NCBI GenBank assembly: GCA_029964075.1
Contig: CM057147.1
Coordinates: forward strand, 17,381,513-17,445,512
Source of the DNA: Patiria pectinifera
Taxonomy: Eukaryota > Echinodermata > Asteroidea > Valvatida > Asterinidae
Length of the DNA stretch: 64,000 nt
Direction: 5' to 3'
The translations under genes were made by a program, and so were the position numbers. Below, one piece after another: positions 16,838 through 43,415 of the stretch; positions within the stretch are counted from its first letter, which is position 1; every line of letters begins with the position of its first letter. A model generated the notes under the pieces. The model made no database searches. It was given only the letters and a program-made list of their open reading frames with translations, and was not told the DNA's origin.

Positions 16838-16841
16838 CCAG

Positions 16842-22123: not shown

Positions 22124-23124
22124 GTTAAAAAATACTCTTCGTGTTTTGTTCAGTTAACTTTTATGGTTAGCTAGAATGAGTTTTAGGCTTTGGACCATAG
22201 AGAAGTTACTTACAATTTATGTGGGTTTTTTTTTCAAATTGGAAACCTGAAAGCCCTGGGAAAGGCTTAGTTATTACCTAAATGGTAACTAGTGTACTCT
22301 GATCATCTTCAAAAGCAGCTGGCAAATCCTTCCAAATAGCAGTATATTTTAATGTGTTATTGCAAAGAGTTTTTTTTAAAATAACTTAAGTTGTTACAAT
22401 TAGGTGCTCATTACTGAAAATTTGAGGTTAACCCTTTCCTAACCACATTGTTTATTGACTTGGCTCTCCCCAGAACCAAATAGTTTTTGCTCAGTCATGC
22501 GGAAATCATGAGAGCGTTAAAAACTCTTTTTTTTTCAACCCAGATTTTCACTGCCAAGGTGTGATTAAAATCAAATGTGTTGTGTGAAAAGTTTGTTCCT
22601 TGAACTTTACTCTTTTACATGTATGTGATGTAAGAATCAAGGCCATGTGTGCAAAAATAAGAAAGTTATGCCTGTTTGTTGATCTCGTCCCAGTAATATC
22701 AAACTGCAAGCCATTTTACCACATGACCAAATGGCACTCCATACCTCAAATTGTGTGTCCAAATATACAAAATATAATGGGCAGCCAAATATAACAAACA
22801 TGCCAGCTTGCTGATAAGCAGTGAATAAATCTGTGTTGATCAGGCTGTTCTGTGTGTATTTTCCTGGTCGACTAAAGTCACCTACATGTATGGTAAGGAA
22901 AGGGTTAAGTTTTTTTAAAGAAATTTTCATTAAATTTTTAAACTTGTTTTCAAACTTATTTCAACTCTCTTAATCTTTAAATCTCTCTCAAAAATGTCTT
23001 CACTCAAAGGAAAAAAATGGGCGGATATGAGTACCGTAGTACATATCACCTAAAATTGACAACAAAATTCAGAATTATATCTTTTATTATCATTTTCTGC
23101 CTTTTTCCTCCTCTTTACACCCAG
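22124..23124. other. PITPNM intron
   Basis: 1.0 kb of AT-rich intron with no repeats recognised. It ends in a strong pyrimidine tract and CACCCAG acceptor. Confidence 0.6.
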
Positions 23125-23295
23125 TTGCCCCACCCAGACCAGCCTGTCGTCAGGTCTTCAATCTGTTTCACCGTACAGACCCATCGGCCTCCCGGATAGA
23201 GCCCCTACTCAATCACAAGTTCTCACTCTTACCCCCCACGGCAGTGGCCAGATACCAGAAGTACCCGCTGGGTGACGGGCACTCTATCAGTTTAG
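23125..23295 (+). CDS. PITPNM: PITPNM exon: DDHD domain core
   Basis: The exon encodes [19 protein letters not shown], then [19 protein letters not shown] and [10 protein letters not shown]. The F-H-x-x-D-P-S-A-S-R-x-E-P-L motif supplies the His and last Asp of the DDHD signature and is intact. Phase 1 in and out. In animals the DDHD domain assists membrane targeting with the LNS2 domain. Confidence 0.97.
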
Positions 23296-23394
23296 GTCAG
23301 TGACGTCAAAATAATTAAGCCCTTAAAACCAACCCCTAGGTTTTTTTTGCTATAGACATTCCTTAAAGATACCTAACCCCCTAGGCTCTTTTGG

Positions 23395-23760
23395 CTAGGA
23401 ACTATCCTCAATCCTGCAAAATCATCCAATTGCCACCATGCAAAAAATTGTATTCAGCCTCAATCCTCCAAAATCATCCGATATTTCTTGATTTTGTTCA
23501 GTGGAGAGGTGACCAATGCCTCAATCCTTCAAAATCCTCCAACAATCACTTTTAATGGGTTGAGGCAGTGCGGATGACATTCAGAAGCAGTGCGGATGAT
23601 ATCGAGCATAATGCAGGGCTTGATTATGCATGGCTGAATATAAACATTGCAGGGTACAGCCTACGAACTCGACACAGTGCATCCTCCAAAATCAGCCAAC
23701 ACTTTTTTTGCCATTCATCCTCAATCCTCCAAAATCCACGTGTGCCTAGCTGGCCTTTCT
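23395..23760. repeat. CTCAATCCTCCAAAATC minisatellite, cluster 1
   Basis: CCTCAATCCT(C/G)CAAAATC(A/C)TCC recurs at irregular spacing about six times, mixed with CAGTGCGGATGA and TGCC-type filler. The same unit forms a denser cluster at 27880-28315 in the same intron region. Confidence 0.7.
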
Positions 23761-23976
23761 TCAAGACTCTAATATTCCATAACTAAAGGCAGCGCTGTGA
23801 ATGAACTGTTTCTTCTCAAGGATGACTTTGAAAATCATTTTTTTTTAAAGTACTCTTGGGGGGGGGGGTATGTATGCTTTTGAAAATGTTTATCATTATG
23901 GATGACCCCTAAGCAGAGCCACAAATGTGGTCACAGATCATTTTGCTAACTCTATTCAGGGTTTTTTTTCTCACAG

Positions 23977-24138
23977 TGGACTGCATATCCCACAACACTA
24001 TCCTGTTCATGGAGGGCCAGTCGGGCTGCGTGTCAGGCAACTTCACCCCGAGTCATCGAAGGCTACCTAGCTCTGCGAGTACTTGCAGCGAGATGGCGGA
24101 GGAAGACAGTAGTGGCATGTCGCCTGCTCTTGCAAATG
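23977..24138 (+). CDS. PITPNM: PITPNM exon: linker before the WWG block
   Basis: It encodes VDCISHNTILFMEGQSG and a Ser-rich stretch (PSSASTCSEMAEEDSSGMSP). Poorly conserved sequence, but flanked by a TCTCACAG acceptor and GTATGA donor, phase 1/1, and keeping the frame from 23295 to 46836. It occupies the position of the variable linker between the DDHD core and the WWG motif in the family. The next exon is 22.7 kb away. Confidence 0.85.
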
Positions 24139-24224
24139 GTATGAATTGCTACTAGCTGAGAGGCGCACTTTTCTTAAGCTATACTTAAAAAGGGTGCTGG
24201 GGACTCAGGTTGATGCAATGGGCT

Positions 24225-24486
24225 CATGTGTGAACAAGAGAGGGCGCTTTTTTACCTCTTTGGATAGCCCAGCAGATGGGGCACACCGCGATAGCGTGCT
24301 GGTTAGCGAGCCTATAGGGCAATGCGCGCACGGCTTACTTTAGTCTGAATGTGCACAAAGCATAGCATCTTCGCGTGAGTGTCAGGCGTCGTAGGCAATG
24401 CCTCCGAATGTCTGTTCCACTGGTCTCCCCCAACTCTCCCTTTCTTACCATTGAGGGGGTACTTGTGCAAGAAGCCAATGGTACTT
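24225..24486. repeat. Partial inverted copy of the 17306 MITE
   Basis: AGAGGGCGCTTTTTTACC matches the terminus of the 17306 element. The block 24350-24480 (CTGAATGTGCACAAAGC, CTCCCCCAACTCTCCCTTTC, GAGGGGGTACTTGTGCA) matches the inverse of 17590-17720. The far end is replaced by SINE sequence at about 24487. Confidence 0.65.
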
Positions 24487-24645
24487 TCCGGTACTTTGGC
24501 CTCTGTGTCCCAGGTTCAAATCCCACCCAGGCGGACATGTGGATTGGATTTTCAGTCCCCGCCTGATTGCATTGGTTCTTCTTGAATATCATTGTATGGT
24601 TATTCTCCCATGTCTAAACATTCCTTCATTGGTTCTCTCTTAAGG
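24487..24645 (+). repeat. tRNA-derived SINE, family 2, copy 3 (5' truncated)
   Basis: CCCAGGTTCAAATCCCACCC (B box), GACATGTGGATTGGATTTTC and a pyrimidine-rich tail match the copies at 15151 and 19301. The head is missing and abuts the MITE remnant. Confidence 0.75.
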
Positions 24646-24648
24646 CTT

Positions 24649-24848
24649 TTAGGGGCTTCTAGTTACAATTATCCCCCCCCCCCCCAACAAAAAACACTAT
24701 AACAGTCATATTTTAAAAGTAATTTCCGTCCGTCTGTCCGTCTCTTCAGGCTTTTAGGGGCTTCTAGTTACAATTATCCCCCCCCCCCAACAAAAAAACA
24801 CTATAACAGTCATATTTTAAAAGTAATTTCCGTCCGTCTGTCCGTTTT
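24649..24848 (+). repeat. Direct tandem duplication, ~100-base unit
   Basis: GGCTTTTAGGGGCTTCTAG, an AATTATCCCCCCCCC run, AACACTATAACAGTCATA and AATTTCCGTCCGTCTGTCCG occur twice in order, the second copy from about 24751. The unit leads directly into the 196-base array. A diverged TTTCCGTCCATCTGTCCGGG borders the other array at 41560. Confidence 0.85.
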
Positions 24849-25945
24849 GGGGGCATTTTGTTAAAAATCTAAAATTGATCTTTTCTCACTGGATACTGAA
24901 TGTAATGAGTTGAACTCTTCAGGTAATTCAATTCTAGCCTCTAGGCACCTGATGTGAACTTTTTAGCAAATTTGATGAAGTTGAATTTTCGGGTCAAAAA
25001 CTGACTTTTTTTTGATGCCGGCTATGGAAAACGTTGAAGTTTGGGGGGCATTTTGTAAAAAAATCCAAAAAATTTTCTTTTCTCACTGGATACTGACTGA
25101 AATGAGTTGAAATCTTCAGGGAATACAATTTTGGCCTCTAGGCACCTCGTGTGAACTTTTGAGCAAATTTGATGAAGTTGGATTTTTGGGTGAAAAACTG
25201 ACTTTTTTTATGATGCCGGCTATGGAAAACGTTGACGTTTTGGTGGCATGTTGTAGAAAATCTAAAATTGATCTTTTCTCACTGGATACTGAATGTAATG
25301 AGTTGAACTCTTCAGGGAATTCAATTCTGGCCTCTAGGCACCTCGTGTGAACTTTTGAGCAAATTTGATGAAGTTGGATTTTTGGGTGAAAAACTGACTT
25401 TTTTGATGATGCCGGCTATGGAAAACGTTGAAGATTTGGGGGCATTTGGTAAAAAATTTAAAATTGTTCTTTTCACACTGGATACTGAATGGAATGAGTT
25501 GAACTCTTCAGGGAATTCAATTCTGGCCTATAGGCACCTCTTGTGAACTTTTGAGCAAATTTGATGAAATTGTATTTTTGGGGTCAAAAACTGACTTTTT
25601 CAAAACGTTGAAGTTTTGGTGGCATTTTTAAAAAAATCTAAAATTGTTCTTTTCTCACTGGATACTGAATGTAATGAGTTGAACTCTTCAGGGAATTCAA
25701 TTCTGGCCTCTAGGCACCTCTCGTGAACTTTTGAGCAAATTTGATGAAATTGTATTTTTGGGGTCAAAAACTGACTTTTTCAAAACGTTGAAGTTTTGGT
25801 GGCATTTTTTAAAAAATCTAAAATTGTTCTTTTCTCACTGGATACTGAATGTAATGAGTTGAACTCTTCAGGGAATTCAATTCTGGCCTCTAGGCAACTT
25901 GTAAGAACTTTTCAGCAAATTTGATGAAATTGTATTTTAGGGTCC
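24849..25945 (+). repeat. Array of a ~196-bp repeat, array 1 (about 5.5 units)
   Basis: Each unit contains GATGCCGGCTATGGAAAACG, TTTTGGTGGCATTTT, TCTCACTGGATACTGAATG, GAGTTGAACTCTTCAGGGAA, TCTGGCCTCTAGGCACCT and GAACTTTTGAGCAAATTTGA. Unit length measured between GATGCCGG motifs at 25212 and 25408 is 196. Some units lack the GATGCCGGCTATG part. 196 is not divisible by three, so the ~63-codon frames in the units do not join. Confidence 0.9.
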
Positions 25946-26681
25946 GGGGGACATTCCTCATGTTGCCGTAGTAGGTCACTTATCTGGAATGCATTCAACT
26001 TCCTAAGTGTAACCTGGAAAAAAAATGACACACTATGGGGGGAACTCACACTAAATTGACGTTATAGGGATTAATTAACTAACCAAACTAAACTAAATTC
26101 AGGATCTTTGAAAGGAATTCTTTGAAGGGCACCCCCTATTAGAAAGAGGTATTCGTGTACAAACCCTTTTTTTCAGGAGGGGGGAGGGGGGGGGACAATA
26201 GGAGGTCCTCTTAAGTGTAGGATATTGGGTGTGCATGCGTGTGCAAAAATTTAACTGAGCCGACCCTAGCCATGTTCTCATCTTTTAGAGCTATGATCTC
26301 ATCGTTTATAATTACAAATATGGGACGCGGTAATATAGACGTAGCCGTAGCTTTGGAAACCCACATAAAATTACAAGTTCATACTTTATTGCCTCAAACA
26401 GAAAACGTGTCTTATTATTTTCTGACACTTAATTACTCATGCGTATAGGTAAATGTTATAATACTTGTAGCAAGACGCTTCTGTTCCGTGTTTAGCAAGA
26501 AAATTCACAGTAAAATCATTTTTATCAAAATGCCATATTCATAAGTTATTCTTTAAAAAGATAGCTTGATACAAAAGTTGCACATTATGATCTATTTTTA
26601 TTATGTTTTGTCCTTCATCTACTTTACATCTAAATACCGATAGTTATTATCTTTGTTACAGCACTTTACACTTTGGTAAAC

Positions 26682-26955
26682 AGTAAAAAGCATTCTTGCA
26701 TATAGTGAGAAAATACAGAAATAAAGAAACTACAAATGCCCAAAACGAAAGTATTTTACACAAGCTCAATTAATAAACATGATAAACAGCAGTCTTGCAT
26801 ACAGTGAGAAAATACAGAAATAAAGAAACTACAAATGCCCAAAATGAAAGTATTTTACACAAGCTTAATTAATAAACATGATAAACACTTAAACAGCAGT
26901 CTTGCGCACAATTTGTGAAAATACAGATACAAAACTACAAATGCCCTAAAATAAA
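26682..26955. repeat. Three tandem ~105-bp repeats downstream of the nested gene
   Basis: CAGCAGTCTTGCATACAGTG, AGAAAATACAGAAATAAAG, AAACTACAAATGCCCAAAA and TTAATTAATAAACATGATAA occur in order twice in full (from 26682 and 26788) and once partly (from 26894). They lie within the likely 3' UTR or downstream flank of the minus-strand gene. Confidence 0.85.
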
Positions 26956-27001
26956 ATACTGTAAAATGTTGCTATATCCTTAGTTGTAATTTTTCTATTA
27001 T

Positions 27002-27007
27002 TTTATT
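27002..27007 (-). terminator. Candidate poly(A) signal of the nested gene
   Basis: AATAAA reads on the minus strand about 375 bases past the TGA at 27381. Other AATAAA hexamers occur further on (about 26597 and 26385), so the true end is uncertain. Confidence 0.3.
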
Positions 27008-27380
27008 ACCATACTACTATAAATTTTCTCCACCACTCTACCAAACTTCTGACCTAAACTAAACCTCATACCTTTGTACCTTAATAATTAGCATTATCTA
27101 CAACGGATACATGCAAATTTTTAGCACTTATCAGGGAGACATACAACCAATCAGATCCATTCCATAATTGTATACAATTTAAGTGATCATCTCATTTGCC
27201 CCACAAGTGTACAGATTATTGTTGCAGCAAATCTACTACAATGGTAACAAAATATGATGCTATAAAAGTGGAAGTGTGCCCAACACACAAATCTTTAGGG
27301 TGTTTCCCTCCTCCATGGTAACACGATTAAAATGGTAACAGCAACAGATACTGAGGCAGCCTTAAGGCCAAGGCCCAGCA

Positions 27381-27496
27381 TCAAGGCACTACATCACTGG
27401 GCTCCATGCAGAACTGACCACTTGCGTCCACGGCTTCCTTGTCTGAGAAGAACGTTGTTGTCAAATTTCCCATTGCATCAGTAGTGAGATAAAAGT
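27381..27496 (-). CDS. Nested gene exon 8: IL-1-like C terminus and stop
   Basis: DFYLTTDAMGNLTTTFFSD then KEAVDASGQFCMEPSDVVP and TGA. The W/F-Y-L/I-x-T turn followed by a final F-x-F/M strand is the usual close of an IL-1 trefoil. Acceptor TTTTGATAG. About 10 residues follow the last predicted strand. Confidence 0.88.
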
Positions 27497-30400
27497 CTAT
27501 CAAAAGAACAATTTAAAAGACACTTTTTAACTATTGCCATCTATGTAGAAAGCATACACAGTGTACAGAAGGTATTATTTACCCCATTTTTTTTTTCAAA
27601 CGAAAGTATCAAAGAAATACAGTCTTTTTTCCTTTGAAATATGAGAGATAATGTCCACCTTCCATACCTTTTTATACTATATACATGTAGTCCCACTTTA
27701 TATTATACCCCGAATCTTTTGGAAGTGGGTAGGGGGCCTTTACACTATAAATGCTATACTAGGCGGAGCAGTTGGGAATACAAACTGACTCATTATCAGA
27801 GGGTCGGGGTTCGACTCCAGCTGCTGGCTATATGTTGTGTCCTCATGCAACCCATTTTACCCCTACTTAACCCTAACCCCCTAGGCCCTTGTTGCTTACA
27901 ACCATCCTCAATCCTCCAAAATCCTCCAAAATTTTCCAAAATTTTGCAACTCCGCCTAAAGTTTTCAAAATTGTCAGACAGTCCTGCCTCAAAATGCATT
28001 CATCCTCAATCCTCCAAAATCCTCCTCATCCCAAAACTTTGCACTCGTGTTTAAATGAAGGATAACCAATGCCAAATCCTTCAAAATCATCAGACAGTCC
28101 TGCCTCAAAATGCATTCATCCTCAATCCTCCAAAATCCTCTTGTGCTTCAATCACCATTCATCCTCAATCCTCCAAAATCCTCATGTGCTTCAATCACCA
28201 TTCATCCTCAATCCTCCAGAATCCTCATTTGATTCAATCACCATTCATCCTCAATCCTCTAGAATCCTCCAAAACCGCCAGGAGGATTTTGGAGGAGTGA
28301 GGTGGGTTAGGGTTAACTGTCTCCACCCAGGAGTACGTATTGTAGTAGACATATGAAGAAATGAGTAGATTGAGTTTTTTCATTGCCAAGGAAACTGGAG
28401 ATAATGCGATCCACTGGCCTGATAAGGCATATTGATTTGAGACGGAGTTGAGTAACTACCAAACCAAAATTTGGTGATTTTTTGTTTGCTGAACTCACCT
28501 GTTCGAGATGCCAGCTGGAATGTATACTTGCCGTCTTGCATCGCAATGAAAAAGATCCTGTCATCTGTCCAAACATCGCTGATCTTGTCTGTCAACTCGC
28601 TGCTGTTCACACCCTAACAAAAAAAGTGTTTCGACTTTCTTGTCAGTACTGCAGAATATGCACAGCCGAACTAGCTTGGGTGTTTCCGAAACCTGTGTTC
28701 CCTTCTCAGCTTTGGCTTCGTCCCCAACCCAAGATTTATAAGAATCTAATAATCCCAATTTGCCCAAATTGAATACACATTGTGTGGCATGATTTAGTGT
28801 ATCTACTTCTGCCAGCAGACAATGGACAACATTGTGCTGGGGTCAGTCAAGTCTGGGGACTAAAATCATTTAAAAACTGGTGTATGAAACCAAAACCAGT
28901 CACGTAACCAGGATTTCGTAAACCCTGACTGATCCAACTAATCATTTTGCTGGACCCAAACGGCCAGCCTATATCTCTGGCTAACTGAGTCACTGACAGA
29001 CGAGTCACTGAGTGCAAATAATGTTCCAGTTTTGACGCTTTCGTATACCAGACATATACATGTACTTGGTCTTGTTTAGTCTTCTTTTTGTCGCATAAAC
29101 CATGCACTCAATATAGTTGACTGATTTGTTTTCACGATGTAAGCGTCATTTAGATTAAAATAAATTTTGCTGCGGCTGACTTACAATTCTTGAGGGCTCC
29201 CCATGATCCAACGGTGAGTTGTTATTTACGTTGATGAAAGCCATTGCTCCATATGGGTAATAGAAACGCTTAAAGCGACCTATGCCAAAGAAAAAGAGAA
29301 GGAAAACAAGCAAATAAACTTTAATATTCTGGGAAAACAAAAGTAATTTTTAAGGGTTCCTCACAAGTGGACGGGCACTTGTAGCTCGAAAGCATGAACA
29401 AATGACAAGTGAAGGAATAATGTTTAATTTATTGGTGGGGAAAAAAACACGGACAGAAATCCCTGGAAAACCCATGATGGAATTGGACAGGGAGCATTAA
29501 AAAAATATCCCTTGATAAAAATTCATGTAACAGTTTTCCCCCCTTTTTTTATGGAAATATTAACCATAAAGGAAAGATTAGAATCTGGCCCAAGCGTGAT
29601 CTTACAAGGTGTCAAGTCGTTCGCCGTTGACATGCAGAAACAATTGTTCTTGAAAATCAGGTACTTGGGGCTCTGGCCACTTTGGTTCTGGAAGATGTAG
29701 TACGGTTCCGATTCGCCATTAAATGGCAACTGGCTGACGTGTACCTTGACGTCTATATCCACCATCACCTGGTCTCCTTCGGATAGAAAACAAGAAAAGA
29801 GTAGAATGAATGACCTCGAGAGAGAACAATCTGAGTCTGCCAGTCTTGGCAAGTCCTCCTGAATTTCTGTTTCTGTCCAACTCTACTCAACTCACGTTAA
29901 CTTTGAAAACATATTGATCAAAACCTCTCTATCTGTTTTGAGAATTAAAAAACAACCTTTGTACGGTCCGGAATGTTGGATTTCGCATGCATGGTGTAGT
30001 GCATCCCCGCCCCCCGCCCCTTTTTAATTGTTTTAACTCCTTCATTATTCGCAGCTGGCAAGTAGTACCCATGGGCGTCGCCAGGATTTTTTCTAGAGGG
30101 GGGCAAACAAATTTTTGGCCAAAAAATGCTGGTATTTCTCAACACATTCTCGATTTATCAGTTTTAGAGGGGGGCAGGGACATTTTGCCCCCCCCCCCAA
30201 CTCATTAAATTTACACCACTTTGTCTTCGCCCCTCTTTTCCTTTTTTTTTCTTTCTTTTTTTTTCTTCCTTTTTTTTTTTTTTTTTTTTTTACTTTTCCA
30301 GGGGGGGGCAAGTGCCCCCCCTTGCCCCCCCCCCTCGCGACGCCCATGGTAGTACCATGGTTGTATCCATTTGCTTTGGTGACCAAATCAGATCAGTTTT

Positions 30401-33400
30401 TCTTAGGTAAACATGCTGGCCTAAACAAGATTTGTTTTGGTATTGTACCCCTTCCTTTGCGTCAGGGGTCAAAGGTGATACGCAGGACCCCAATGCGGGA
30501 CTGCGTTGAGAGATTGTGACATTGTTGTGCAATGGAAAATATTGCGTACCTTCGAGTAAAATCTTGATGGCTATTGTGACTTTATGACAAACAAAAGCAC
30601 CACCTTCGTCCTCTTGTTCGCGTTCGACGACCTGTTAACGCAAGTGGAACAGATATGATTAATTACAATGAATTTGCCTTGGCAGTGTGTCTTGGGTTGG
30701 GTTGCGTGGGTTGGGTTGGGTCCAACCTCTTTCCCAGGGTGTCGAGCAGAACGCGCCCACCACTACCTGCTCTCTCACCCTGGTATTGGATCATTTGCAT
30801 GTGAAAGATTTTTTTACACATATGTGTCGCGGGGTCTATTCCAGTTAGGAAAACCCCAATGATATAAATTCAACCGGTTCAGTTCGACAAAATAATCAAA
30901 GAAATAAAAATGTTCGGAAATAGGTATATTTACAGCTCGAATTAAAAAGGACTTTTAATTCAATTCAATCATACACTGTTCAAGTTGAAGTCAAAACAAA
31001 ATATAAACAAAGAAAGTGGATATGTAAACACAAATGAAAATGCACAGATTACAACAATTTACACAACGCAAGAAAAGGATAAGCTGTTCGCAGTTGCGTC
31101 TCCCGCGGTCTTGTCCAGATCCAGTGATGACCGACGATTCGAATCAAATCACGTCCACGAATGCGCGAGTACAAAAGTTCACGAAAAGAACAAAGTTCAC
31201 GGAGCGAGAAGTGGCAGAATCACAGGGAACGAAGGGAAGATCCGGGGCTGAACATCTTGCGGACGTCTAGACAGGCCATCGGCATCTGCGTTCTTCGAAC
31301 CTGGCCGGTACTGAATGCTGAAGTTGTAGTTGGCAAGGGCAGCCAACCACCGCTGCCCAGTCGCATCGAGTTTGGCAGACGTCAGGATGTAGGTCAGCGG
31401 ATTATTATCCGTTAGAACTTTGAAGTTACCGCCATACAGATAATCATGGAACTTCTCAGTCACCGACCACTTTAGCGCCAAGAACTCAAGCTTGTGGGCA
31501 GGGTAGTTGGCCTTGCTTCTTGACAGACCTCGGCTGGCATAGGCGATGACCTTCATTCTTCCTTCCTGCTCCTGATAGAGCGCTGCCCCAAGGCCGGTGA
31601 TGCTGGCATCTGTGTGAATCAGAAAGGGGGAGTTGTAGTCCACAAACCCCAGGACCGGAGCGGTTGTAAGCTTCCCAATCAGGGCATCAAAGGCATCCTG
31701 GCAGTGTGGTGTCCATAGGGCCCCAAAGGGTTCGGTGGCACTTCTGTAGTTGGCCTGCATTCTCCCCTTTTTGAACTTCTTCTTGGTGAGGTCACATCCT
31801 GCGGTCAGTTGGTTTAGGGGTCGGGCAATGGAGGAGTAGTTCGCCACAAACCTCCTGTAGTAGCCCGTGAATCCTAAAAAGGACTTCAACTCTCGGGCAT
31901 TTGTTGGGGTGGGCCACGACTTAACCGCGTTGATTTTGTCTGGATCGGTGCTGACTCCATCCCTCGACACCACGTGGCCTAAGCATTTGACAGAGGTCTG
32001 GAAAAACTGGCATTTTGCGTGGTTGAGTTTAAGACCAAACTCCTGCAAACGGACCAGAACTTCCATCAACCTCTGCTCATGCTCTTCCAGAGTTTTGGAG
32101 AAGATGAGGAGATCATCCAGGTAAACCATTACATCCATCGGGTTCAGATCTCCCACACACTTCTCCATAAGCCTCTGGAAGGTCGCTGGGGCATTGGTGA
32201 TGCCCTGTGACATCCGGTTAAACTCGAAGAACCCCAGGGGACACCAGAAGGCTGTCTTGGGTTTGTCGACCTCCTCAAGCTCTATCTGGTAAGGCCAAAA
32301 AAAAGAATAGTTCTGCTTCCGGTTACCCGACCGACCCTATTTTTAGGCTGCGACCCTAAAAATTTTATCGGCAATTCCAAAGAAAAAAAAAAAAAAAGAT
32401 TGAATAAATAAAAATAAAAACCTTATGTCTTTTCTGTCTTCACAAAATACCTCTCAACAACCCTTTTGCATAAAAAAAAGCTTGTATTTATTGTTTTCTT
32501 ACTTACATTCGCTATTTTTTCAAAAGAAACCTCCGTTATTTTACAAATTCGCTGCGCGATTCAACTACTTCGCAATTCGATGTCTATAATCACGTGCGTA
32601 ATAAGCGCAATGCGGCGACGACTGGTTCCCGCCGCGCCGCGCAGGGGCCAATTATGAAAATGCGGTAACTAGTCTGTGCACGGCTATGCGATCGATATCG
32701 CTAGCAGTAGCATGGCTATGCAGCAGGCGCAGGCACGTGCTCTGTCAACTGGTCGGACTCGACATCGTAAAAATGCTGAGAAAGACATCGTAAAAATGCC
32801 AAGAAAACACCGATGGAGAAAGAACATTTTTGCAAGTTAATTCACAGATTTGATCTAGCTTGTCTGTGTATGTATTGACTAGCGTTGTGCCTATGGTGCG
32901 AACGACCTGAATTGTCCACAATTTTTTTTGCGAATTATCGAACGTAAATATATTGACAATAATTAAGGTAGGTTTTACTCACTTTTTGTGGCCATTTTGT
33001 GTACAGCTTTTGTAGTGCAATGGAAATAGTTCAGGCTAAAACTTCGCATATATATTAATACCCCATTCAATCTGCATAAAAAAAATTGGCAAAAAAAAAA
33101 AAAATTCCGACCGACCGACCCTATTTTTGAAAGGCATGTAATCGGAAGCAGAACTATTTTTTTTTTTTGGCCTAATACCCAGACTTGAAGTCCAGGCATG
33201 TGAACCACCGGGCACCATTTAGAGCGTGGAGGGTCTCCTCAATCCTAGGAATGGTGTATTGGTCCCTGATGGTCCTCGAGTTCAACTTGCTATAATCAAT
33301 GCATAACCTCACATTACCATTCTCCTTCCGGACGACCACAATGGGTGAAGCGAACTGACTCTCGGAAGGGCGGATGATGTCACGATCCATCAGCTCCCTC

Positions 33401-36400
33401 AGATGTCTTCTCACGTCTAAGTAATCTGCGGGGGCGATGTTCTGTGACCTCACACGGAAGGGCGAGTCGTCAGAAAGGTGGATTTGGTGTTTGACTGCTG
33501 AAGTGCAGCCAATATCCAAATCCCCTCTGGAGAACACCTGCGACCTATCCCGTAAGAGCCGGGTGACCCGTTCTTTTGTCTCTTCTGGAATTGGGGAACC
33601 CTTGAAGTCAAATTCAAGTGGTTGCTTCTCTGGGACCTCAATATTCGCACAACTGGCCTGATGTCTAGGGGATGTGACTTTTCCATCTAATCTATCTGGG
33701 TGTAGGGACTGAAGCACCTCCACAGCATATGCATGAGCGATGGTGATACCTTCCGGGAGAATGATAGCATGCTCGGACTCATTCCTCACCATCACTGCCA
33801 CCTTGCTTCCGGAATTTGGGGAAATGACGTCTACTGTCCGTTGGACGACCAGACCACCAGGGGAAAAACAGTCTTCATCGGACTCAACCATAATCACTGC
33901 CTCAGCCGGGAATGAATTGTGAATTGAGCCTTGCAGTTCTACATGGTTGCCCCTCTTTATTGACACAGGACCGCTGAGAAGCTGAACATCTGATGCTTTG
34001 CCGTCTGGCCTAGTCGACATGGCAGAAGCTTCAATCTGGAGGTAGGCTGCCACCCAAGCGCTGGTTACCTGTAACTTCTGTAGGAAGTTTGGGCCAGCCT
34101 CTTGTTTGCAGCTTTCCAACAGCCTCCCAACAATGTTGGTGTTCGTGCCTAGAAGGAGAGGTGCTCGGTTGCTGCCATCTCGGCTGGGGGTGACCAGTGC
34201 CAACGTGGTGGTTTCCATGTCAACTCCAGCCGTCTCTTTTGTAAATCGCACTCTCACCTCTATGTACCCCAGGTAAGGCACCGATCGTCCACTTGCTCCC
34301 ACCACAAGAAGATTGGTGATGGGCTGTAGTGGATGATGACGAAGATGAGTCCTGTAAAAGGACTCAGCGATGCACGTTACCTGGGACCCAGTATCCATAA
34401 GGCATGGGACTTGAGTACCCTCTATCTCAGCAGTAAGTATGGCCGGGTTGCCCACCAGTTTCTTTGGTAGCCCTTGGAGGGGGCTACTGCTCATGCTGAG
34501 GGAGAGGGTTGTCTTCTTGGATACTTCTCGCCTTATGGGACTCGGTATACTCTTGGCCGCAGGTTGTCCCGCTACTGGCGGCCACCTTCGTTTCCCAAAG
34601 TGGAAGCGGACTTACACCTTGAGGCCATCTGCTGTTGGACTAGTGGTGCGTTGGTTTCATTTGCGCACTCCGTCAGACGATGTCTGGGCTGGGCTCATGG
34701 GTTGGGCTCATGGGTTGGGTTTGGTTGAGTTTGTTTCTGCATTCAATAGGGGACGTTGAACAATAGAGGGCAATAGGGTCCCCAATTTCCTGAAGGTCCC
34801 CAATTTACGATCATGTACAAAACATATGGGAGGTCTTCCTAAAAAGTTTGAGTACAAATACAAAAGAGGGACAATAGGGGTCCCAGGCAAATACACACTT
34901 GTGTGGGTTGAATTGGGTTGGGTTGAATTGGGCTGGGCTGGGTTGGTCTGAGATGTTTCTAGTCAGGTCTAACTTAACAAAGTTAAAGATGAAAAACTAA
35001 TTTAGAACCGTTTGTCTGCTCCATGTACTTACAATTTTGAAGTCCACTTCATCCAAAGAGCCAAAAAACTGCTGGAGCTCCTTGAATTCCCAACTCGTGA
35101 CATCATTTTCATTGACGCTGACAATGATATCGTTTTCCCTGTTCAAAAACAAACAAAAAACGTTTTGAAGGCCCAATACTTCATGGTGATAATAGAATAG
35201 TCTAAAGCTACTTTTGTACACTAATGACGCAGGATATCCTTATTCCTCTTTTTATCCAGTTATTTATTTTTTTTTTCTGTAAATGAATTTCCAAGTAGGC
35301 CTACATGTATATCATTTCCTTGTTATGTTTTGCCATTTGGCAATTGGGAACACTGATAGTTTTTCACAGAAACATTAAATTGTTCCACTTTTGTTTGATG
35401 GGATAAACTTGTTGGTTTCATTTAACCATGGACCATTTACACCACTTGAATATCAGTTTTGAGATGGTTTATTATTAATTAAGTGATCAATTCACTCAAT
35501 CAATCATTGAATTTAATAGCCTAACGACAGGCTGTCCGATAGAATGATCAGTTAATTACTTGATCAATCTGTCAGCCAATCAATGAATTAATCTGATCGA
35601 TTATAGTTCGCTGATGAAAGTTATTGTCAACTGATTCACTTATAATATCAACTGATCAAAAGATAAATATCCAACCGACTGATTGATCGTTATTTTAACT
35701 GATCGAATGATAGATAAATTAATTGATGGATCATTCATTGATTAATTAGCTTGTTGATAGATTCCAATGACAGAGCAATTAATTCATTTATTTTGTTTAT
35801 AGATTTTATCCGTGGATAGATTAATTGATGCATCATTCAGTTGATCGATCGATTGATAGATTCATATGCTCATCAGAATGAACTACTAACTTCAAGCAGA
35901 ATAAGATGGAATTGATAATGTCAAAACAAGCTTAACCCTAACAACCCTGAGCCCATCAAGCTCCAACAGCGGGTTTTGCTTGATTTTGGCAGGGTTGGTA
36001 CCGAACACTGGCCAGCTGGTGTTGGACTTTGATTGACTGGGTACCAAAGGCCCAGGGAGACCCTGTTGAATTTTGTGAGGTTCGGGGCAGAAGGGCATGA
36101 GATTTGTGAACACGTTGGAGTTCACTGGCATTTCTTCGTGGGTATGCTCACCCACGGTCCTCAGCACAGCTTGTGGTCAAATGTGCATGTACATATTGCT
36201 TTATTTTGTTAGGTTGGGTACCATCCCTATCCAATCACTCGACAATGCATAGGCCCATCCATACCAAGTCAATCAAACTCCAACAGTTGGAGTTTGGCAG
36301 GTTTAGTACTGTTCCCCGTACAAGGCCTGTTGGAGTTAGGCAGTTTTGGTACCAGTGCTTACAGACCTGTATGCAGCTGCTGAAATTTGTTAGGTTTGGT

Positions 36401-37491
36401 ATCCTTTCTAGTGCAAGAGCCTAGGGGGTTAGGGTTAAGGCTGACTCTGTTTAATTGTGATAGTTTTTAATTATATGAGTTTTCTGAATTGGGAAAAAAA
36501 CTTACTGGAGTTTAGAATTGGCCGCCAAACCATCAGGAATTACGCTGTGGACAAGATGACCCTTCGCGTTCTTCCGAATATGCATGCCCAGTCCCACCAT
36601 TCCTCCAATCAGCTTGTCAGGATGCCGCACGTGCACGTTGTTGTCCGGGCGGTGCTCCAGAGAACTCTGCATATAGAATGTCACACAAGTATAAACCATA
36701 ATCGTAATCAAATCCACGCTAATAATAATATTGTGGGGACAAAATATTCGGATTCGGCTGAAGAACAGTCACATTTCCCTCCGATCGTATTTTAGCCGAC
36801 CCTAATTGCAACTGCAAATCAGGTGTACATTCAGTTTTTCATACACGGGATCGGAGATTTAGAAACGCCGGTTGTTTTTTACTGTGTTGCTTCTATAAAG
36901 AGTTGACTTAAAAAGTCATGTTGCTTGTCTGGAATGGAAAACGCGCTTTGGGTTCAGTTTTAAATGCCTTTGTAAACCGATACCGATCGTTTTTTGGTAA
37001 GGTATATATACCTGCGGCAACGGCAAGACTTGGCGAAACGGCTCGACTAATTTCCTGACAATCTTGCGGGCTTGTTTCTTCCCCGTGTGCACCAGGTCGG
37101 AGAATATTCCGTCGATCACATCTTCACCACCTCCAAGCACCTGCTGGAAACCTTGGCTACATGGTAGTTCTCCTTCTTCTTCTTTCTTGTTCCCCTGTCC
37201 AACTCCCTCCCCACCCGGTCCAACGGTGATCGCTTCATCTACCTCTCCACCTCCCGCTAACAGGTTCTCCCCAACATGGGAGTCCCCGAACTTCGGGTTG
37301 CTTTGTAGGCGGCAAAACTGGCGAATTCCCGGTCCGATCTCGTCCGAGACCGAACGCTGGCTCTTGTACACCCTGCTGTCATCATCGTGGTCGGCAGAAG
37401 GCGGTGTTTTCCTCGGCCGCTGAGGCGCGCCAAACGCTGTGGACGCAGTGGGCTTCGCGGCAAGATTTGTCGGCGTGTCGTCTTCACTCAT
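27381..37491 (-). CDS. Nested gene: PDZ domain plus IL-1-like beta-trefoil protein (8 exons, 441 aa)
   Basis: Eight minus-strand exons (37012-37491, 36506-36666, 35033-35138, 30550-30631, 29606-29776, 29185-29279, 28499-28613, 27381-27496) sum to 1326 nt and join in one open frame ending in TGA. All junctions are GT-AG. Layout: residues 1-110 disordered, acidic, no signal peptide; ~125-158 a basic amphipathic segment; ~178-255 a PDZ domain with GLGM carboxylate-binding loop (185-188); ~285-436 beta-rich. The C-terminal 70 residues follow interleukin-1 family proteins in order and spacing: DDRIFFI, then KYTFQLAS, then DFYLTTD, then FFSDKEAVDASGQFCME. IL-1 cytokines also lack signal peptides. 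I do not recognise a named orthologue. The PDZ call is firm; the IL-1-like call is inference. The whole gene lies antisense within one PITPNM intron. Confidence 0.85.
27786..28440 (+). repeat. tRNA-derived SINE, family 1, copy 2, split by a minisatellite
   Basis: TCATTATCAGAGGGTCGGGG, TTCGACTCCAGCTGCTGG and TATGTTGTGTCCT are the SINE head and body. The end (CTCCACCCAGGAGTACG, AACTGGAGATAATGCG, CTGGCCTGATAAGGC) resumes at 28320. The intervening 27880-28315 is CTCAATCCTCCAAAATC minisatellite, flanked by CTAACCC / GGGTTAGGG. Confidence 0.75.
27880..28315. repeat. CTCAATCCTCCAAAATC minisatellite, cluster 2
   Basis: ATTCATCCTCAATCCTCCA then AAATCCTC recurs at least six times, with two ~50-base higher-order units (CTTCAATCACCATTCATCC). 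It starts after TTAACCCTAACCCCCTAGG and ends with GGTGGGTTAGGGTTAA, i.e. inverted ends, so it may be a mobile repeat-bearing element inserted into the SINE. Confidence 0.75.
28499..28613 (-). CDS. Nested gene exon 7: IL-1-like C-terminal segment, part 1
   Basis: GVNSSELTDKISDVWTDD then RIFFIAMQDGKYTFQLASRT. The run (L)TDK..DDRIFFI...KYTFQLAS corresponds in order and spacing to the ITDL..DKRFAFI...SFESA part of IL-1 receptor antagonist and other IL-1 family members. Phase 0 in, 1 out. Confidence 0.88.
29185..29279 (-). CDS. Nested gene exon 6: middle of beta-rich domain
   Basis: RFKRFYYPYGAMAFINVNN then NSPLDHGEPSRI. Aromatic-rich strand pair followed by a polar loop. It completes a Cys codon and ends phase 0 at GTAAGT. 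No paralogous family recognised from this exon alone. Confidence 0.85.
29606..29776 (-). CDS. Nested gene exon 5: start of beta-rich domain
   Basis: GDQVMVDIDVKVHVSQLPF, then GESEPYYIFQNQSGQSPKY and LIFKNNCFCMSTANDLTP: alternating hydrophobic strands of about 5-7 residues separated by turns. That is what the first beta-trefoil leaf would look like. Phase 1 in, 1 out at GTAAGA. Confidence 0.88.
30070..30348. mobile_element. hAT-like G/C-run MITE, 279 bp, 8-bp target duplication
   Basis: The termini CATGGGCGTCGCC and GCGACGCCCATG are inverted, and both flanks read GTAGTACC, a perfect 8-base duplication. The interior has GGGGGGC and a matching C-run, plus a long T/C-rich stretch. It sits in nested-gene intron 4. 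Confidence 0.85.
30550..30631 (-). CDS. Nested gene exon 4: post-PDZ strand
   Basis: VVEREQEDEGGAFVCHKVT then IAIKILLEG. VVERE completes the last PDZ strand begun by DFKI in exon 3. An acidic turn and a hydrophobic strand follow. Acceptor GTTAACAG, donor GTACGC, phase 0 in, 1 out. It was identified by splice sites and frame because it is too short to stand out alone. Confidence 0.8.
31197..32291 (-). CDS. Gypsy pol fragment B: C-terminal RT and RNase H
   Basis: Resumes the RT at the insertion junction: FNRMSQGITNAPATFQRLM, then VYLDDLLIFS (catalytic YLDD). RNase H motifs follow: FLIHTDASITGLGAALYQ, ASRGLSRSKANYPAHKLE, KVLTDNNPLTY. The last residues include KNADADGLSRRPQ, the usual end of gypsy RNase H, after which homology stops and integrase is missing. 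Confidence 0.92.
   Translation of the reverse strand, partial: YQIELEEVDKPKTAFWCPLGFFEFNRMSQGITNAPATFQRLMEKCVGDLNPMDVMVYLDDLLIFSKTLEEHEQRLMEVLVRLQEFGLKLNHAKCQFFQTSVKCLGHVVSRDGVSTDPDKINAVKSWPTPTNARELKSFLGFTGYYRRFVANYSSIARPLNQLTAGCDLTKKKFKKGRMQANYRSATEPFGALWTPHCQDAFDALIGKLTTAPVLGFVDYNSPFLIHTDASITGLGAALYQEQEGRMKVIAYASRGLSRSKANYPAHKLEFLALKWSVTEKFHDYLYGGNFKVLTDNNPLTYILTSAKLDATGQRWLAALANYNFSIQYRPGSKNADADGLSRRPQDVQPRIFPSFPVILPLLAP
32292..33172. mobile_element. 881-bp TA-flanked AGGCC-polyA element inside gypsy RT
   Basis: The ends are AGGCCAAAAAAAAGAATAG and CTATTTTTTTTTTTTGGCC, and the subterminal TTCTGCTTCCGGTTAC/ATCGGAAGCAGAAC is inverted. CGACCGACCCTATTTTT occurs near both ends. TA directly flanks both sides, and the RT frame is continuous if one TA and the element are removed. 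No transposase frame inside. It is the largest member of a family also found at 14216, 41654, 42144 and 52472. Confidence 0.85.
33173..34494 (-). CDS. Gypsy pol fragment A: protease and N-terminal RT
   Basis: About 440 codons open. CLMDTGSQVTCI near residue 31 is the aspartic protease active site (DTGS). Further on, RPSESQFASPIVVVRKENG, RLCIDYSKLN and FTCLDFKSGY are RT fingers/palm motifs, including the first catalytic Asp. The frame stops at the junction with the inserted element. Upstream gag sequence is absent. Confidence 0.9.
35033..35138 (-). CDS. Nested gene exon 3: PDZ, second half
   Basis: It reads ENDIIVSVNENDVTSWEF then KELQQFFGSLDEVDFKI, the G/E-D-x-I-x-x-V-N strand and following helix of a PDZ domain. 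It completes the Gln codon split by intron 2 and ends phase 0 at GTAAGT. Note ENDI where many PDZ domains have GD. Confidence 0.92.
35460..35880. repeat. ATTGATC/TGATCAAT cryptic simple repeat
   Basis: About 420 bases of intermixed GATTAATTGAT, TGATCAAT and CAATCAATC motifs on both strands. AT-rich with many short palindromes (TTAATTAA, TGATCA). No gene. Confidence 0.7.
35930..36440. mobile_element. Probable MITE with CTTAACCCTAAC ends, in nested-gene intron 2
   Basis: The left terminus is GCTTAACCCTAACAACCCTG and the right terminus is CTAGGGGGTTAGGGTTAAGG, inverted. The interior has repeated CTCCAACAG, TTGGCAGG and TTGGTACC motifs in both orientations. It lies between nested-gene exons 2 and 3 and ends 66 bases from exon 2. 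Confidence 0.6.
36506..36666 (-). CDS. Nested gene exon 2: PDZ, first half
   Basis: SSLEHRPDNNVHVRHPDKL is followed by IGGMVGLGMHIRKNAKGHL and VHSVIPDGLAANSKL. GLGM is the PDZ carboxylate-binding loop (GLGF class), and the P-x-G-x-A-x-x-S-x-L pattern is the usual PDZ helix A region. Acceptor ATATGCAG, donor GTAAGT, phase 0 in and 2 out. Confidence 0.92.
37012..37491 (-). CDS. Nested gene exon 1: start codon and disordered N terminus
   Basis: It starts MSEDDTPTNLAAKPTAS, rich in Asp, Ser, Pro and Gly with no hydrophobic leader. It contains DHDDDSRVYKSQRSVSDEI and a Gly/Glu-rich part (GGGEVDEAITVGPGGEG), and ends in a basic amphipathic stretch (VHTGKKQARKIVRKLVEPF). 160 codons, phase 0 out at GTATAT. 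The GC-rich exon creates plus-strand shadow frames. Confidence 0.85.
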
Positions 37492-37620
37492 GCTCGCTCG
37501 GCTATATTTGCCCCGGTAAATTCAACTAGCTAATGTAAGACTATCGCCTCTTGTATTGACTGAGCCGTTAAATAAAAAGTTCAGTATCCTGCTTTCTGTT
37601 TTTATATTCCCCTTGAAGGA
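37492..37620 (-). promoter_or_regulatory. Candidate 5' UTR/promoter of the nested gene
   Basis: On the minus strand a TATTTAA box-like motif lies about 80 bases upstream of the ATG. The ATG context is CGAGCATGAG. CpG is more frequent here than in the surrounding intron. No transcript evidence is available, so the transcription start is a guess. Confidence 0.25.
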
Positions 37621-39744
37621 AGTAGGTTTCACCATATGGAGCCGTAATGCGGTTTCCCAGGCTGAGTCCCAGGAACAAGCCGAGGGTTCAACGGAAATTT
37701 GAGGTCTGGATTGGAAACTGTAACCCGAATCGATGTTGGTTCCAGTTTATGTGAACTATTATGACACGTCACGGGGTAACCTAATTCGAATATTCACGTG
37801 CAAGCAAAGACCATAGATGGTACGGGTCATATGGAAATGGAATAAAACATCTTCTTATTCCATATCTATGTCTAGTATTGACACGGTACAGACAGAGCAC
37901 GCGTTCTACGCACTGTGAGAATCTGGCCAATCAGACTGCGGGAATGGAAGAAACATCATGGAGCATGGCAACCAATGAAATCTTAGAAGGTCTGAAGTCA
38001 ATACATGTACATGTCTATTTGGTACAGAAACCAATATAGATAAGTGTAGTCAGGAACGATGTAATATGTATTGTTAGTTATTGAACGGCTTGTGCCCTTG
38101 CCCCAGGTCTCAGAATACTGCGCTATGTGGTCCTAACCCCGTTACTTACTTGAACCTCACCTCATACCACCAGCCTTGCCCTTAATTCTGTGCATGCATG
38201 CATTTCGTGACCTTGATCGCGTTCAATCAAAATTATGTTACTGTGAGCTGAGGGTGACTGTGGCATGCACACAGGATCACACGATACACCAACTGACCTC
38301 GAGATCACGCGATGTGAAACGAAAACTCTCAACTTCTGGAACCTTCAATATGTGATCGTGATCATCGTGTTATTAGTCCAAACAAAAAATGTTCACATTG
38401 CTCAGATTAAAATTATACACGTGAGGATCAGTTTAAATGCTTCTGTGTTGTTTGAAACGATAAAATTGCTCAGAATTGGAATTAAACATGCAGAACACCT
38501 AACCTGGTGAAAAAAAAAGCGAAGTGGATACTGTACACGTTTTGAGGAAAAAACTTGCCGCAATATTTTTGGTGTCGTTTCTAACACTTCCAATTCAAAA
38601 TTTCACCCACTTATGAATAGTCCCCGAATCAGCTCCCGGGACATGATTCTCGTTCAGACGTTCACAGTTAATGCGCTATCTTTGCAGTATATTTAACTTC
38701 AGTGGGGAAATAGGTTCATTTCTGGGTATTTATCACCAATATTCATACGTGCCTTATATCCGAAAAGTAACCTTAGCTAGCGAATTACCAAAAAGCGTAT
38801 TTGGGCTAAAAATATTCCGTCTGGGGCAGATATGGGGAAAATATTTGGGGGAATTGTGCCTTTGATGATACAAGCATGGCATTTACGGTCCGAGTATGTC
38901 TTAAGAAGGATATTTGGCTATAGGGCCATCACAAATTTGTCGTTTGATCAAATAGAGGTAGAATAGCAAGCAATTTACCATTTTTTTAATGGCTGCTGTA
39001 GCTTGTTGACCGAAACAATAAACTATTGACGTAGATCCAGCCTCATCTGCTATAAAATAGATCCTCAAACTTCACTTGATAAGTTCCGCCCTGCACAACG
39101 CTTACCCAGATGACTAAAAACATGACTACCGAACGGAAACTGGTATGGTTGTTTTAAAAATTACGACAAGAGTTATAGTTTCTGTCAAAACCAAATCTGA
39201 CATAAAGAACCTCTGGCCATCTAGTACGCGTCCAATCGGAAACTTTATTGGCTCCTCATGAAAAATTCCTCAGTTATTTCCTCCGATATAAACAGCTGGT
39301 AATAATCAAGTTTCAGTTATCTTCTGGACCTGTACAGGCATGGCTACCCCTAGCCCTCTGGTGCGCCTATGCACCACCATGGCTCCACCAAGCAACAACC
39401 TCGGTTCGGAGCCGGCTGTAATGAAGACTGAACACGAAAACCTCATAAACTTAGCAAATCAATCTGACTTACCTTCATAATATAGTTTTGGCTTGCAGGA
39501 TATCAAACCATGGAGAAATTTCTCCATGATCAAACTGTTTGTCGGCTTCCCTGGCCTTGCATTGTGATGTGACAGCGAGTACATAGCGACTATTGCAGCG
39601 GCGTCAGTCGAGTGGTTTGCGCCCGCGATCGCAAGCACGTGGCACTGCACAACTTGTGTTGACGATGACAGCAAAACAATAACACGTAGATAGAGGGCGC
39701 GCTTTATGTTCACCGTTAACTCAAATTCAGTTTTTGCAGGTGTT
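37621..39744. other. Intron DNA upstream of the nested gene
   Basis: No exon or clear repeat was found in these 2.1 kb. They may hold regulatory sequence for the divergent, nested gene, but no motif can be named with confidence. Confidence 0.5.
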
Positions 39745-39846
39745 ACATGCCATAGCACAATGAGAAATAATTCCCACCTTGGACTTTTCACGTTATGTAC
39801 ATCATTTTCAAAGGTGGGGGTTATTCCTCATTATGCTATGGCATGT
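39745..39846. repeat. Hairpin, ~35-base arms
   Basis: ACATGCCATAGCACAATGAG then AAATAATTCCCACCTT pairs with AAGGTGGGGGTTATTCC then TCATTATGCTATGGCATGT around a ~30-base loop. Its right edge is exactly where the hAT-like MITE at 39853 was inserted. Confidence 0.75.
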
Positions 39847-39852
39847 TAAAGC

Positions 39853-40230
39853 CAGGCGCGGTTCTAGAACCAATATTTTTGGGGGGGGCTAACACGGTGG
39901 ATCAAGAAAAAATTTTCAGGGAGGCGTGCTGAAATGAAGACCGGTTATTTTTTCCAGACACTTAGGCCTCCGAAAATCAATAGTTGGGTGGGGCTCATGC
40001 CATATTTTCAATGCCGGAGCGCCAATAAAATCCTAAAATCATTCACACTATATTAACTAATGCACCCTTGTCACGACTATTTCTTTAGGAGGGGGGACCG
40101 TTCGCATGTACATCACAATTTTTCTTTTGGCTAATGCAATTTTTTTTTGTACGGAATTTATTTTGGGGGGGCTAGACAAAATTTTGGGGGGGCTTCAGCC
40201 CCCCCTAGCCCCCCCGTAGAACCGCGCCTG
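39853..40230. mobile_element. hAT-like G/C-run MITE, 378 bp, 8-bp target duplication
   Basis: The termini CAGGCGCGGTTCTAG and GTAGAACCGCGCCTG are inverted, and GTTAAAGC occurs directly on both sides. The interior has GGGGGGGGCTA at the left and GCCCCCCCTAGCCCCCCC at the right. Non-coding. Together with the 30070 element it defines a G-run group. Confidence 0.88.
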
Positions 40231-40559
40231 GTTAAAGCGCAATCATTGGCTTTCCAATGACTCCAAATTTATTTCTGAAGCTTAATTTATTCCAAAGATA
40301 TGAAGCGGGAACTTTAACAATGTCCTGCCAAGTTTCTCTAACCTCATTTCGAGAAAAACGACTGTGAAACCACAACACGCATTGCGCCGCCAACGGCAGT
40401 GAAAAATGTTTTTCAGTTTTCCACTTTTGTGGGTGTTTTTTTTCCCAACAAAAATGCATAGTGTGGATACCTTGACTACTCAAAAATACAAAACAATAAA
40501 TATCGATTTTGACAAAATTTGTCTAGTATATCCGAATTCGGGATTTGATTACTCAAAAC

Positions 40560-41540
40560 AAGGTTTTGGGCCAAAAACTTTTTTGATGATGCCGGCTATG
40601 GAAATCGTTGAAGTTTTGGTGGCATTTTTAAAAAAATCTAAAATTGTTCTTTTCTCACTGGATACTGAATGTAATGAGTTGAACTCTTCAGCAAATTCAA
40701 TTCTGGCCTCTAGGCAACTTGTGTGAACTTTTGAGCAAATTTGATTAAATTGTATTTTTGGGTCAAAAACTGACTTTTTTGGTGATACCGGCTATGGAAA
40801 ACGTTGAAGTTTTGGTGGCATTTTGTAAAAAATCTAAAATTGTTCTTTTCTCACTGGATACTAAATGGAATGAGTTGAAATCTTCAGCGAATTCAATTCT
40901 GGCCTCTAGGCAACTTGTGTGAACTTTTGAGCAAATTTGATGAAATTGTATTTTTGGGTCAAAAACTGACTTTTTTGATGTTGCCGGCTATGGAAAACGT
41001 TGAAGTTTTGGTGGCATTTTGTAAAAAATCTAAAATTGTTCTTTTCTCACTGGATACTGAATGGAATGAGTTGAAATCTTCAGGGAATTCAATTCTGGCC
41101 TCTTGGCACCTCGTGTGAACTTTTAAGCAAATTTGATGAAGTTGGATTTTCGGGTGAAAAACTGACTTTTTTTATGATGCCGGCTATGGAAAACGATGAA
41201 GTTTTGGTGGCATTTTGTAAAAAAATCTAACATTTTTCTTTCTCACTGGATACTGAATGTAATGAGTTGAACTCTTCACGAAATTCAATTCTGACCTCTA
41301 GGCACCTCGTGTGAACTTTTGAGCAAATTTGATTAAGTTGGATTTTCGGGTCAAAAACTGACTTTTTTGATGATGCCGGTTATGGAAAGCGTTGAAGTTT
41401 TGGGGGCATTTTACAAAAAAATCTAAAAAGTTGCTTTTCTCACTGGATACTGAGTGTTATGAGTTGAACTCTTAAGGGAATTCAATTCTGGTCTCTAGGT
41501 ACCTTGTGTGAACTTTTGAGCAAATTTGATGAACTTGCGA
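40560..41540 (+). repeat. Array of the ~196-bp repeat, array 2 (about 5 units)
   Basis: Same unit as array 1 (GATGCCGGCTATGGAAA, TCACTGGATACTGAATG, GAGTTGAACTCTTCAG, CTGGCCTCTAGGCA, TTTTGAGCAAATTTGAT), in the same orientation. It is followed at 41556 by AATTTCCGTCCATCTGTCCG, the motif that precedes array 1. The two arrays flank the nested gene about 15 kb apart. Confidence 0.9.
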
Positions 41541-41653
41541 GCCTATGTTATACCAATTTCCGTCCATCTGTCCGGGTGTCCGTTTGGCGTCCGCGTTCAG
41601 ATAAAAATGTTGAAGTTTTTGGTTCTAGCTAACTTGGTAAAAAAATGCAGTTT

Positions 41654-42019
41654 AGGCCAAAAAAAAAATATTTGGTCTCTGGTCAGACCAAAGTTCAGAA
41701 TTGATGCGGTGACGCGGTTGTTTTGGGGGGGGCCCGTTTTTTTTTTTTTGAAGCTTGGATTGTACAGACAAGATGGGTACTATTTTGCTTTTGTTTCATC
41801 CTCATATACATTGTGGACCTCCATAATTTGCCTTGGTGCCCTCCATCATTTGCGTTGGTGCAATTTCCCCATTCCTTGGTACAAAAATTTGAGGAGGTGC
41901 GGCAATAGAGGGTGCTGCTGTAGCTACCGTGAATATTTGAAGAAGAAAAACAGGTTGACGCGCATGATTAAAAACGACGCGCGCGCTGACCAGAGACCGA
42001 CTTATTTTTTTTTTTGGCC
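41654..42019. mobile_element. MITE of the AGGCC-polyA family, GGTCTCTGGTCAG subfamily, copy 1
   Basis: Left AGGCCAAAAAAAAAATATTT then GGTCTCTGGTCAGACC; right GCTGACCAGAGACC then a T-run and GGCC. The interior shares CACCAAGG/CCTTGGTGC and GGTACTATTTTGC blocks with the copy at 52472, in inverse orientation. Flanked by TA on the left and TTA on the right. Confidence 0.75.
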
Positions 42020-42143
42020 TTACATGTATCATCTCTGTAACTTACAATTAGGTTCATTTCTTTGCAGTTAATTTTATGATTTCATTGATACGGTGGCCCT
42101 GGAAGGACATTTTAATTTTGACTTTTTTAATGTGAACCTTGTA

Positions 42144-42513
42144 AGGCAAAACAAAAAGTCTCCGGTTTCTGGTATGCGCGCGCGTCTCCGTAGCCATGCA
42201 CGTCGGCAAAATGAAAAAGTTTTTTTTTTCACTGAAAGATGATGTCTCAAAACTGCCAAACTCACTACTTTGACTGGAATCCTGCTGCTGCACAATTTTA
42301 ACGTGTTTTAGATTGGGTTATGGTCGAGAATAAGCTTTATGTGGCCTCTCTGGACTTTCATATATTTGCACTAAGTTTAGTCGGGCACCATTTGCAGTCA
42401 TCAGCCGACATTTGAAGTAAAAAAATCAGGTAAAAAAACAAAAAGCCGCGTCACTGCACCACTTTTTGGGCAAGCTCCATACCAGAAACCGGAGAGAGAC
42501 TTTTTGGGGGGCC
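42144..42513. mobile_element. MITE of the AGGCC-polyA family inserted in the left TIR
   Basis: It begins AGGCAAAACAAAAAGTCTCC and ends GACTTTTTGGGGGGCC, flanked by TA on both sides. Removing the MITE and one TA restores alignment of the left TIR to the right TIR. Inverse-orientation homologue of 14216-14586. Confidence 0.85.
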
Positions 42514-43400: not shown

Positions 43401-43415
43401 TCTCATATCCAAAAC

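Follow-up and report, generated by a model that had tools for sequence, protein, structure and literature searches.

Does a starfish gene join a PDZ domain to a fold of the interleukin-1 (IL-1) family, and is the copy of that gene at this locus an intact one? The stretch considered here, called the window below, comprises 64,000 nucleotides of the Patiria pectinifera genome (C19:17381513-17445512, in an assembly of 613.5 Mb and 1020 contigs), and an earlier note on it had described a gene of this kind. We lean, with a little more confidence than doubt, towards the view that the gene in the window arose recently as a partial duplicate, its parent being a starfish gene for an intracellular adaptor with a variable N-terminus, a single PDZ domain, a linker region and a beta-trefoil tail of unassigned family. 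That the tail belongs to the IL-1 family is possible but unlikely.

The PDZ gene and its relatives

Eight exons (480, 161, 106, 82, 171, 95, 115 and 116 bases, in order) join on the minus strand to one open frame of 441 codons plus stop, with GT-AG borders at all seven introns. They are the following:

Exon 1, 37012..37491, minus strand: residues 1-160, the N-terminal region without a Pfam match, holding KSQRSVSD
Exon 2, 36506..36666, minus strand: first part of the PDZ domain, including GLGM
Exon 3, 35033..35138, minus strand: second part of the PDZ domain
Exon 4, 30550..30631, minus strand: end of the PDZ domain and start of the linker (residues 250-277), beta-rich by eye
Exon 5, 29606..29776, minus strand: linker and, from residue 301, lobe A, with which the putative trefoil begins
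Exon 6, 29185..29279, minus strand: middle lobe of the putative trefoil, lobe borders set by eye
Exon 7, 28499..28613, minus strand: end of the putative middle lobe and start of the last, two codons shorter than in the copy at C16:7.55 Mb
Exon 8, 27381..27496, minus strand: putative last lobe, homologous to the C16 copy as far as 27400

Exons 1-6 match the paralogue at C16:7.55 Mb from end to end with identical splice sites, exon 1 is covered by the alignment with the database relative P0001, and database proteins of Patiria miniata and Acanthaster planci span the joined exons in alignments made at the protein level. The exon joining given in the earlier note is right, because the rejoined frame is open, the introns are GT-AG and the proteins of both species align across the joins.

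The PDZ domain that had been read from a GLGM loop at residues 185-188 was confirmed by Pfam (PF00595, residues 185-239, E 6.5e-8, 33.3 bits against a cut-off of 23.2), and the domain was over the cut-off in all five database relatives, isoforms counted. The region in front of it had no Pfam match over the cut-off in the window protein or in the relatives. By hydropathy, the N-terminus of the window protein is not hydrophobic (best 11-residue mean 0.55 in the first 40 residues), and neither a signal-peptide-like start nor a membrane-spanning stretch was found by this measure in any of nine family proteins, isoforms counted; to the extent that hydropathy can tell, the lack of a signal peptide is therefore borne out.

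With residues 140-441 as the query, the protein search screened 849 candidates and returned five relatives, namely two isoforms of LOC119723861 and one protein of LOC119723747 from P. miniata, and two isoforms of LOC110981036 from A. planci. A profile search found the same five among 5824 candidates, all from Patiria and Acanthaster. This distribution is a lower bound, because a search with residues 285-485 of the Acanthaster protein returned only the two isoforms of that gene and none of the known relatives from P. miniata. In the genome of P. pectinifera itself, 29 matches fell into four loci, C16:7.55 Mb (C16a), the window on C19, C3:10.17 Mb and C16:11.11 Mb (C16b), whose frames, with exons set by homology, are all open (470, 441, 461 and 461 residues, respectively). 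At least four genomic loci thus form a small family with PDZ and C-terminal domain. Between C16a and C3 the ratio of non-synonymous to synonymous substitution rates (dN/dS) was 0.17 in the PDZ part and 0.42 in the trefoil part. The loci C3:10.17 Mb and C16:11.11 Mb (L007-L008 and L009-L010) were also seen to be a second, more recent duplicate pair, with 96-97% identity over long DNA stretches and dS 0.008.

The fold of the C-terminal tail

The tail of about 135 residues is probably a beta-trefoil, as judged from its sequence profiles. Fascin (PF06268) was the recurring weak Pfam match, found in four of six trimmed tail segments (best E 0.0051), and FRG1 adds one segment below threshold (E 0.22). 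A fascin hidden Markov model (HMM) gave 5.2-9.7 bits on all six segments and -1.3 to -0.6 bits on their reversals. Shuffles reached the observed fascin score in 0-3 of 1000 cases over the six sequences, compared to 0-6 for IL-1 and 44-115 for FGF. With hhalign, where the six starfish segments were set against home-made fascin and IL-1 profiles, the latter of ten human IL-1s, fascin scored 21.2, no column shuffle of 150 came as high and the reversed alignment reached 13.5; FGF scored 14.3, with 18 of 150 shuffles as high. Lobes A and C align to the same lobe motif of the fascin profile in four of the six (C3, C16a, P0001 and P0003), the match of lobe A being weak (1.5-2.2 bits).

Several results weigh against a trefoil and favour the explanation that the tail is another beta-rich domain, its profile resemblances being twilight-zone noise. 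The best Fascin score was 17.4 bits against a Pfam cut-off of 23.1, Fascin was not listed when the window protein (E up to 1) and P0001-P0005 (E up to 10) were scanned at full length, and no library model matched the tail over any cut-off. Models that are not trefoils matched about as weakly (Hpf1_C and MIOS_WD40 at E 0.13, DUF386 at 0.17). Profile searches of the PDB returned no trefoil protein among eight distinct chains at E up to 10, the best of which was an antibody chain (E 0.074). In the window copy the fascin pattern is seen in the last lobe only, and the Acanthaster protein aligns in a different register. Internal lobe symmetry gave nothing, the best pair being equalled by 13 of 120 shuffles, in a test of low power that was also empty for five of six fascin and IL-1 control pairs (best control 3 of 60). 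Moreover, human IL-33 has weak cross-matches of its own, to AbfB (E 0.0077) and EstA_Ig_like (E 0.052), and weak matches therefore suggest at best a fold, not a family; we take AbfB to be a trefoil. Reversed sequences score on the IL-1 profile as well, as given below. Against noise stand the recurrence of Fascin together with FRG1, and the fascin-profile scores in excess of both shuffles and reversals. On balance we regard a non-trefoil tail as doubtful, although a good deal less so than an IL-1.

Three bacterial families listed by NCBIfam (E 0.086-0.12) were taken as noise. In a separate observation, Fascin matches were found on contig C18 of the same genome, where translation of the given strand showed nothing of use.

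Interleukin-1 or another family

The case for IL-1 had been made from the spacing of a signature. The PROSITE pattern, as given in the earlier note, is [FC]-x-S-[ASLV]-x2-P-x2-[FYLIV]-[LI]-[SCA]-T, with eight fixed positions, of which FQLASRTDFYLTT keeps five. A match of five or more was reached by 1547 of 5000 shuffles of the window protein, and a second match of five lies at its residue 68. The site is not conserved in the family: C16a, C3, C16b and LOC119723747 score 4, LOC119723861 scores 5, the Acanthaster protein scores lower with the motif outside its top three, and the S and P positions are changed in all six aligned starfish members. Among the human IL-1s, eight of ten score 6 or more, while IL-38 scores 5 and IL-33 scores 4. 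The motif FES-PG-WF, named for IL-1 in PMC12108812, is not kept in the starfish tail either. The signature was consequently rejected as evidence for IL-1, being at chance level.

Pfam IL1 (PF00340) was never listed for the window protein, the relatives or the trimmed segments, in searches where the HMMER filters discard most matches over E 0.1. Human IL-33 likewise matches its own model and not PF00340, whereas IL-18 and IL-38 do match it; since a true IL-1 fails this model too, the missing match is not decisive. A search of the own genome with PF00340 gave nothing, and was uninformative, since control genomes were equally silent.

The profile comparisons are more favourable to IL-1. The hhalign score was 23.6, reached by one of 150 column shuffles, which exceeds both the yardstick of IL-33 against the other nine IL-1s (20.4) and all 15 cross comparisons between fascin and IL-1 (at most 17.8); the other within-family yardsticks were 33.9 for IL-18 and 22.7-56.7 for fascin domains. 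The IL-1 HMM gave 1.9-9.2 bits on the segments, above nearly all shuffles as stated, and IL1RN alone reached z 3.1-4.2 with all five segments compared (fascin domain 1: 1.4-4.2). These scores, together with the N-terminus that is not hydrophobic, are what can be said for a protein like IL-33 or IL-1 alpha, with a divergent IL-1-family trefoil as its tail, which would stay intracellular in health, be released upon damage or cleavage and signal through an IL-1R-like receptor.

We consider such a cytokine improbable. The reversed alignment still scored 20.1 and reversed sequences gave -0.2 to 7.9 bits, and the match covers mainly the second half of the tail; lobe A was aligned in three of six, with -0.9 to -3.1 bits, and there it falls on the middle of the IL-1 profile. 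The mean z over ten IL-1s was just 0.9-1.9 for the five segments (fascin 0.8-2.9, FGF -0.1 to 2.4). Fascin fits about as well, and higher in an earlier hhalign run of four rows and one fascin domain (24.7, compared to 22.2 for IL-1), so that by sequence fascin-type and IL-1-type are about level. A non-cytokine is favoured because of the fusion to PDZ, the lack of a signal peptide and the fact that relatives were found in starfish only. IL-1 is not refuted, given that human IL-33, compared in the same way, stands no nearer to the rest of its family (mean z 1.5). Of the PDZ-trefoil protein proposed earlier, the PDZ assignment and the way in which the exons are joined stand, and the trefoil tail is made plausible by profiles scoring above shuffles, whereas IL-1 in particular found no support: its motif is at chance, its Pfam model is never listed, reversals score nearly as high and fascin fits about equally.

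A clipped copy, its surroundings and comparison with known systems

The window copy is a recent partial duplicate of the intact C16 gene, cut at its 3' end. The features that bear on the duplication and its surroundings are:

27400..39008, minus strand: duplicated block in common with C16:7.55 Mb, six pieces, 92-100% identity
L012 1-536 and L011 9919-9999: the long isoform's alternative first exon as present at C16, 98.9% over 178 residues
31197..34611, minus strand: pol pieces of retroelement type (protease, reverse transcriptase, RNase H) within intron 3, where the sequence did not align to the C16 copy
6207..47149, plus strand: PITPNM-like gene pieces (IP_trans end 6207-6668, DDHD start 21529-22128, DDHD end 46751-47149)

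Exon 8 matches the C16 copy up to base 97 of 116, and after MEP the C16 protein continues with an 18-residue tail, the window protein with five codons and a stop, which have no counterpart in the C16 copy. Between the two genes dN is 0.050 and dS 0.058, a ratio of 0.86, and the identity to P. miniata LOC119723861 is 88% for the window copy and 96% for the C16 copy. The alternative first exon lies outside the duplicated block, and the window holds only weak partial matches to it. At C16 this exon was also seen to contain the shared motif YKSQ[RK]SVSD and, by eye, PPAKRPL, which resembles a nuclear localisation signal.

The window copy could be a dead duplicate, the protein being made by the other copies only. 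The block that ends within exon 8, the alternative first exon left outside it, the ratio of 0.86 and the retroelement in an intron all point that way. Against it, the frame is fully open with every splice site GT-AG, and the net length differences in exons 1 and 7 (42 and 6 bases) keep the frame; exon 1 has 480 bases compared to 522 in the C16 copy. To us the two sides balance. As a young partial duplicate of the adaptor gene, the window copy may be turning into a pseudogene, with its frame still open.

For the adaptor family a mode of action may be sketched. PDZ domains normally bind C-terminal tails; the trefoil, too, is a module for binding. The PDZ domain would attach the protein to a membrane or signalling partner by that partner's tail and the trefoil would bind a second partner, for which fascin-type (actin) binding is the nearest model. 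The alternative first exons might set the location or the regulation of the adaptor.

The window copy is flanked by the two DDHD pieces, which lie on the opposite strand, and is hence antisense within a PITPNM-like gene if both pieces belong to one gene; this PITPNM/RdgB-like name is our assumption from the domain pair IP_trans and DDHD. In intron 3 the reverse transcriptase match is divided between two open reading frames, one ending at 33172 and the other starting at 32336. Two further stretches on the minus strand, 12611-13349 and 45524-46465, carry long proline-rich open frames that resemble simple repeats and are probably not genes.

An IL-1-like protein was reportedly described from Asterias forbesi in 1986, without a gene. 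A family in which PDZ is fused to a trefoil of IL-1 descent would give invertebrates their first molecular candidate for an IL-1, and one from the same animal class as that protein, although we think this descent improbable. According to a 2022 review, IL-1 orthologues outside vertebrates are not known, while IL-1-like activities have been described in echinoderms (PMC9020223). The starfish protein, with its possible trefoil and its lack of a signal peptide, is a concrete molecule with which this gap can be tested. Even if it is not an IL-1, the architecture of PDZ plus trefoil is unreported among the papers that the literature searches listed, and the small family that carries it evolves under purifying selection. 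The papers listed included none on a PDZ-IL-1 or PDZ-trefoil starfish protein, and the main text of a survey of trefoil proteins (PMC12225799) mentions neither PDZ nor starfish. The comparison also indicates how weakly the spacing of a motif speaks for a family in the trefoil fold: with the ten-sequence profile, the starfish candidate scores at least as well as IL-33, which is a true IL-1.

The closest known systems are the uncharacterised proteins of LOC119723861, LOC119723747 and LOC110981036, which have the same PDZ and C-terminal domain and align across the joined exons. They carry at least 18 residues after the last lobe, whereas the window copy has five, and LOC119723861 and LOC110981036 have isoforms that differ at the N-terminus. 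The likeness to the Fascin domain lies in YLT-D--G-LT in the last starfish lobe and KYL----CRF in the first; fascin, however, consists of four tandem actin-bundling trefoils, while the starfish protein has one candidate domain (about 135 residues) fused to PDZ. With the IL-1 family (PF00340, IL-33), 33 columns of the last lobes align with the starfish tail, at a closeness equal to that of IL-33 to the other IL-1s in the ten-sequence profile. The starfish protein differs from that family in having no Pfam IL1 match and no signature, in its fusion to PDZ and in a first half that does not align in order.

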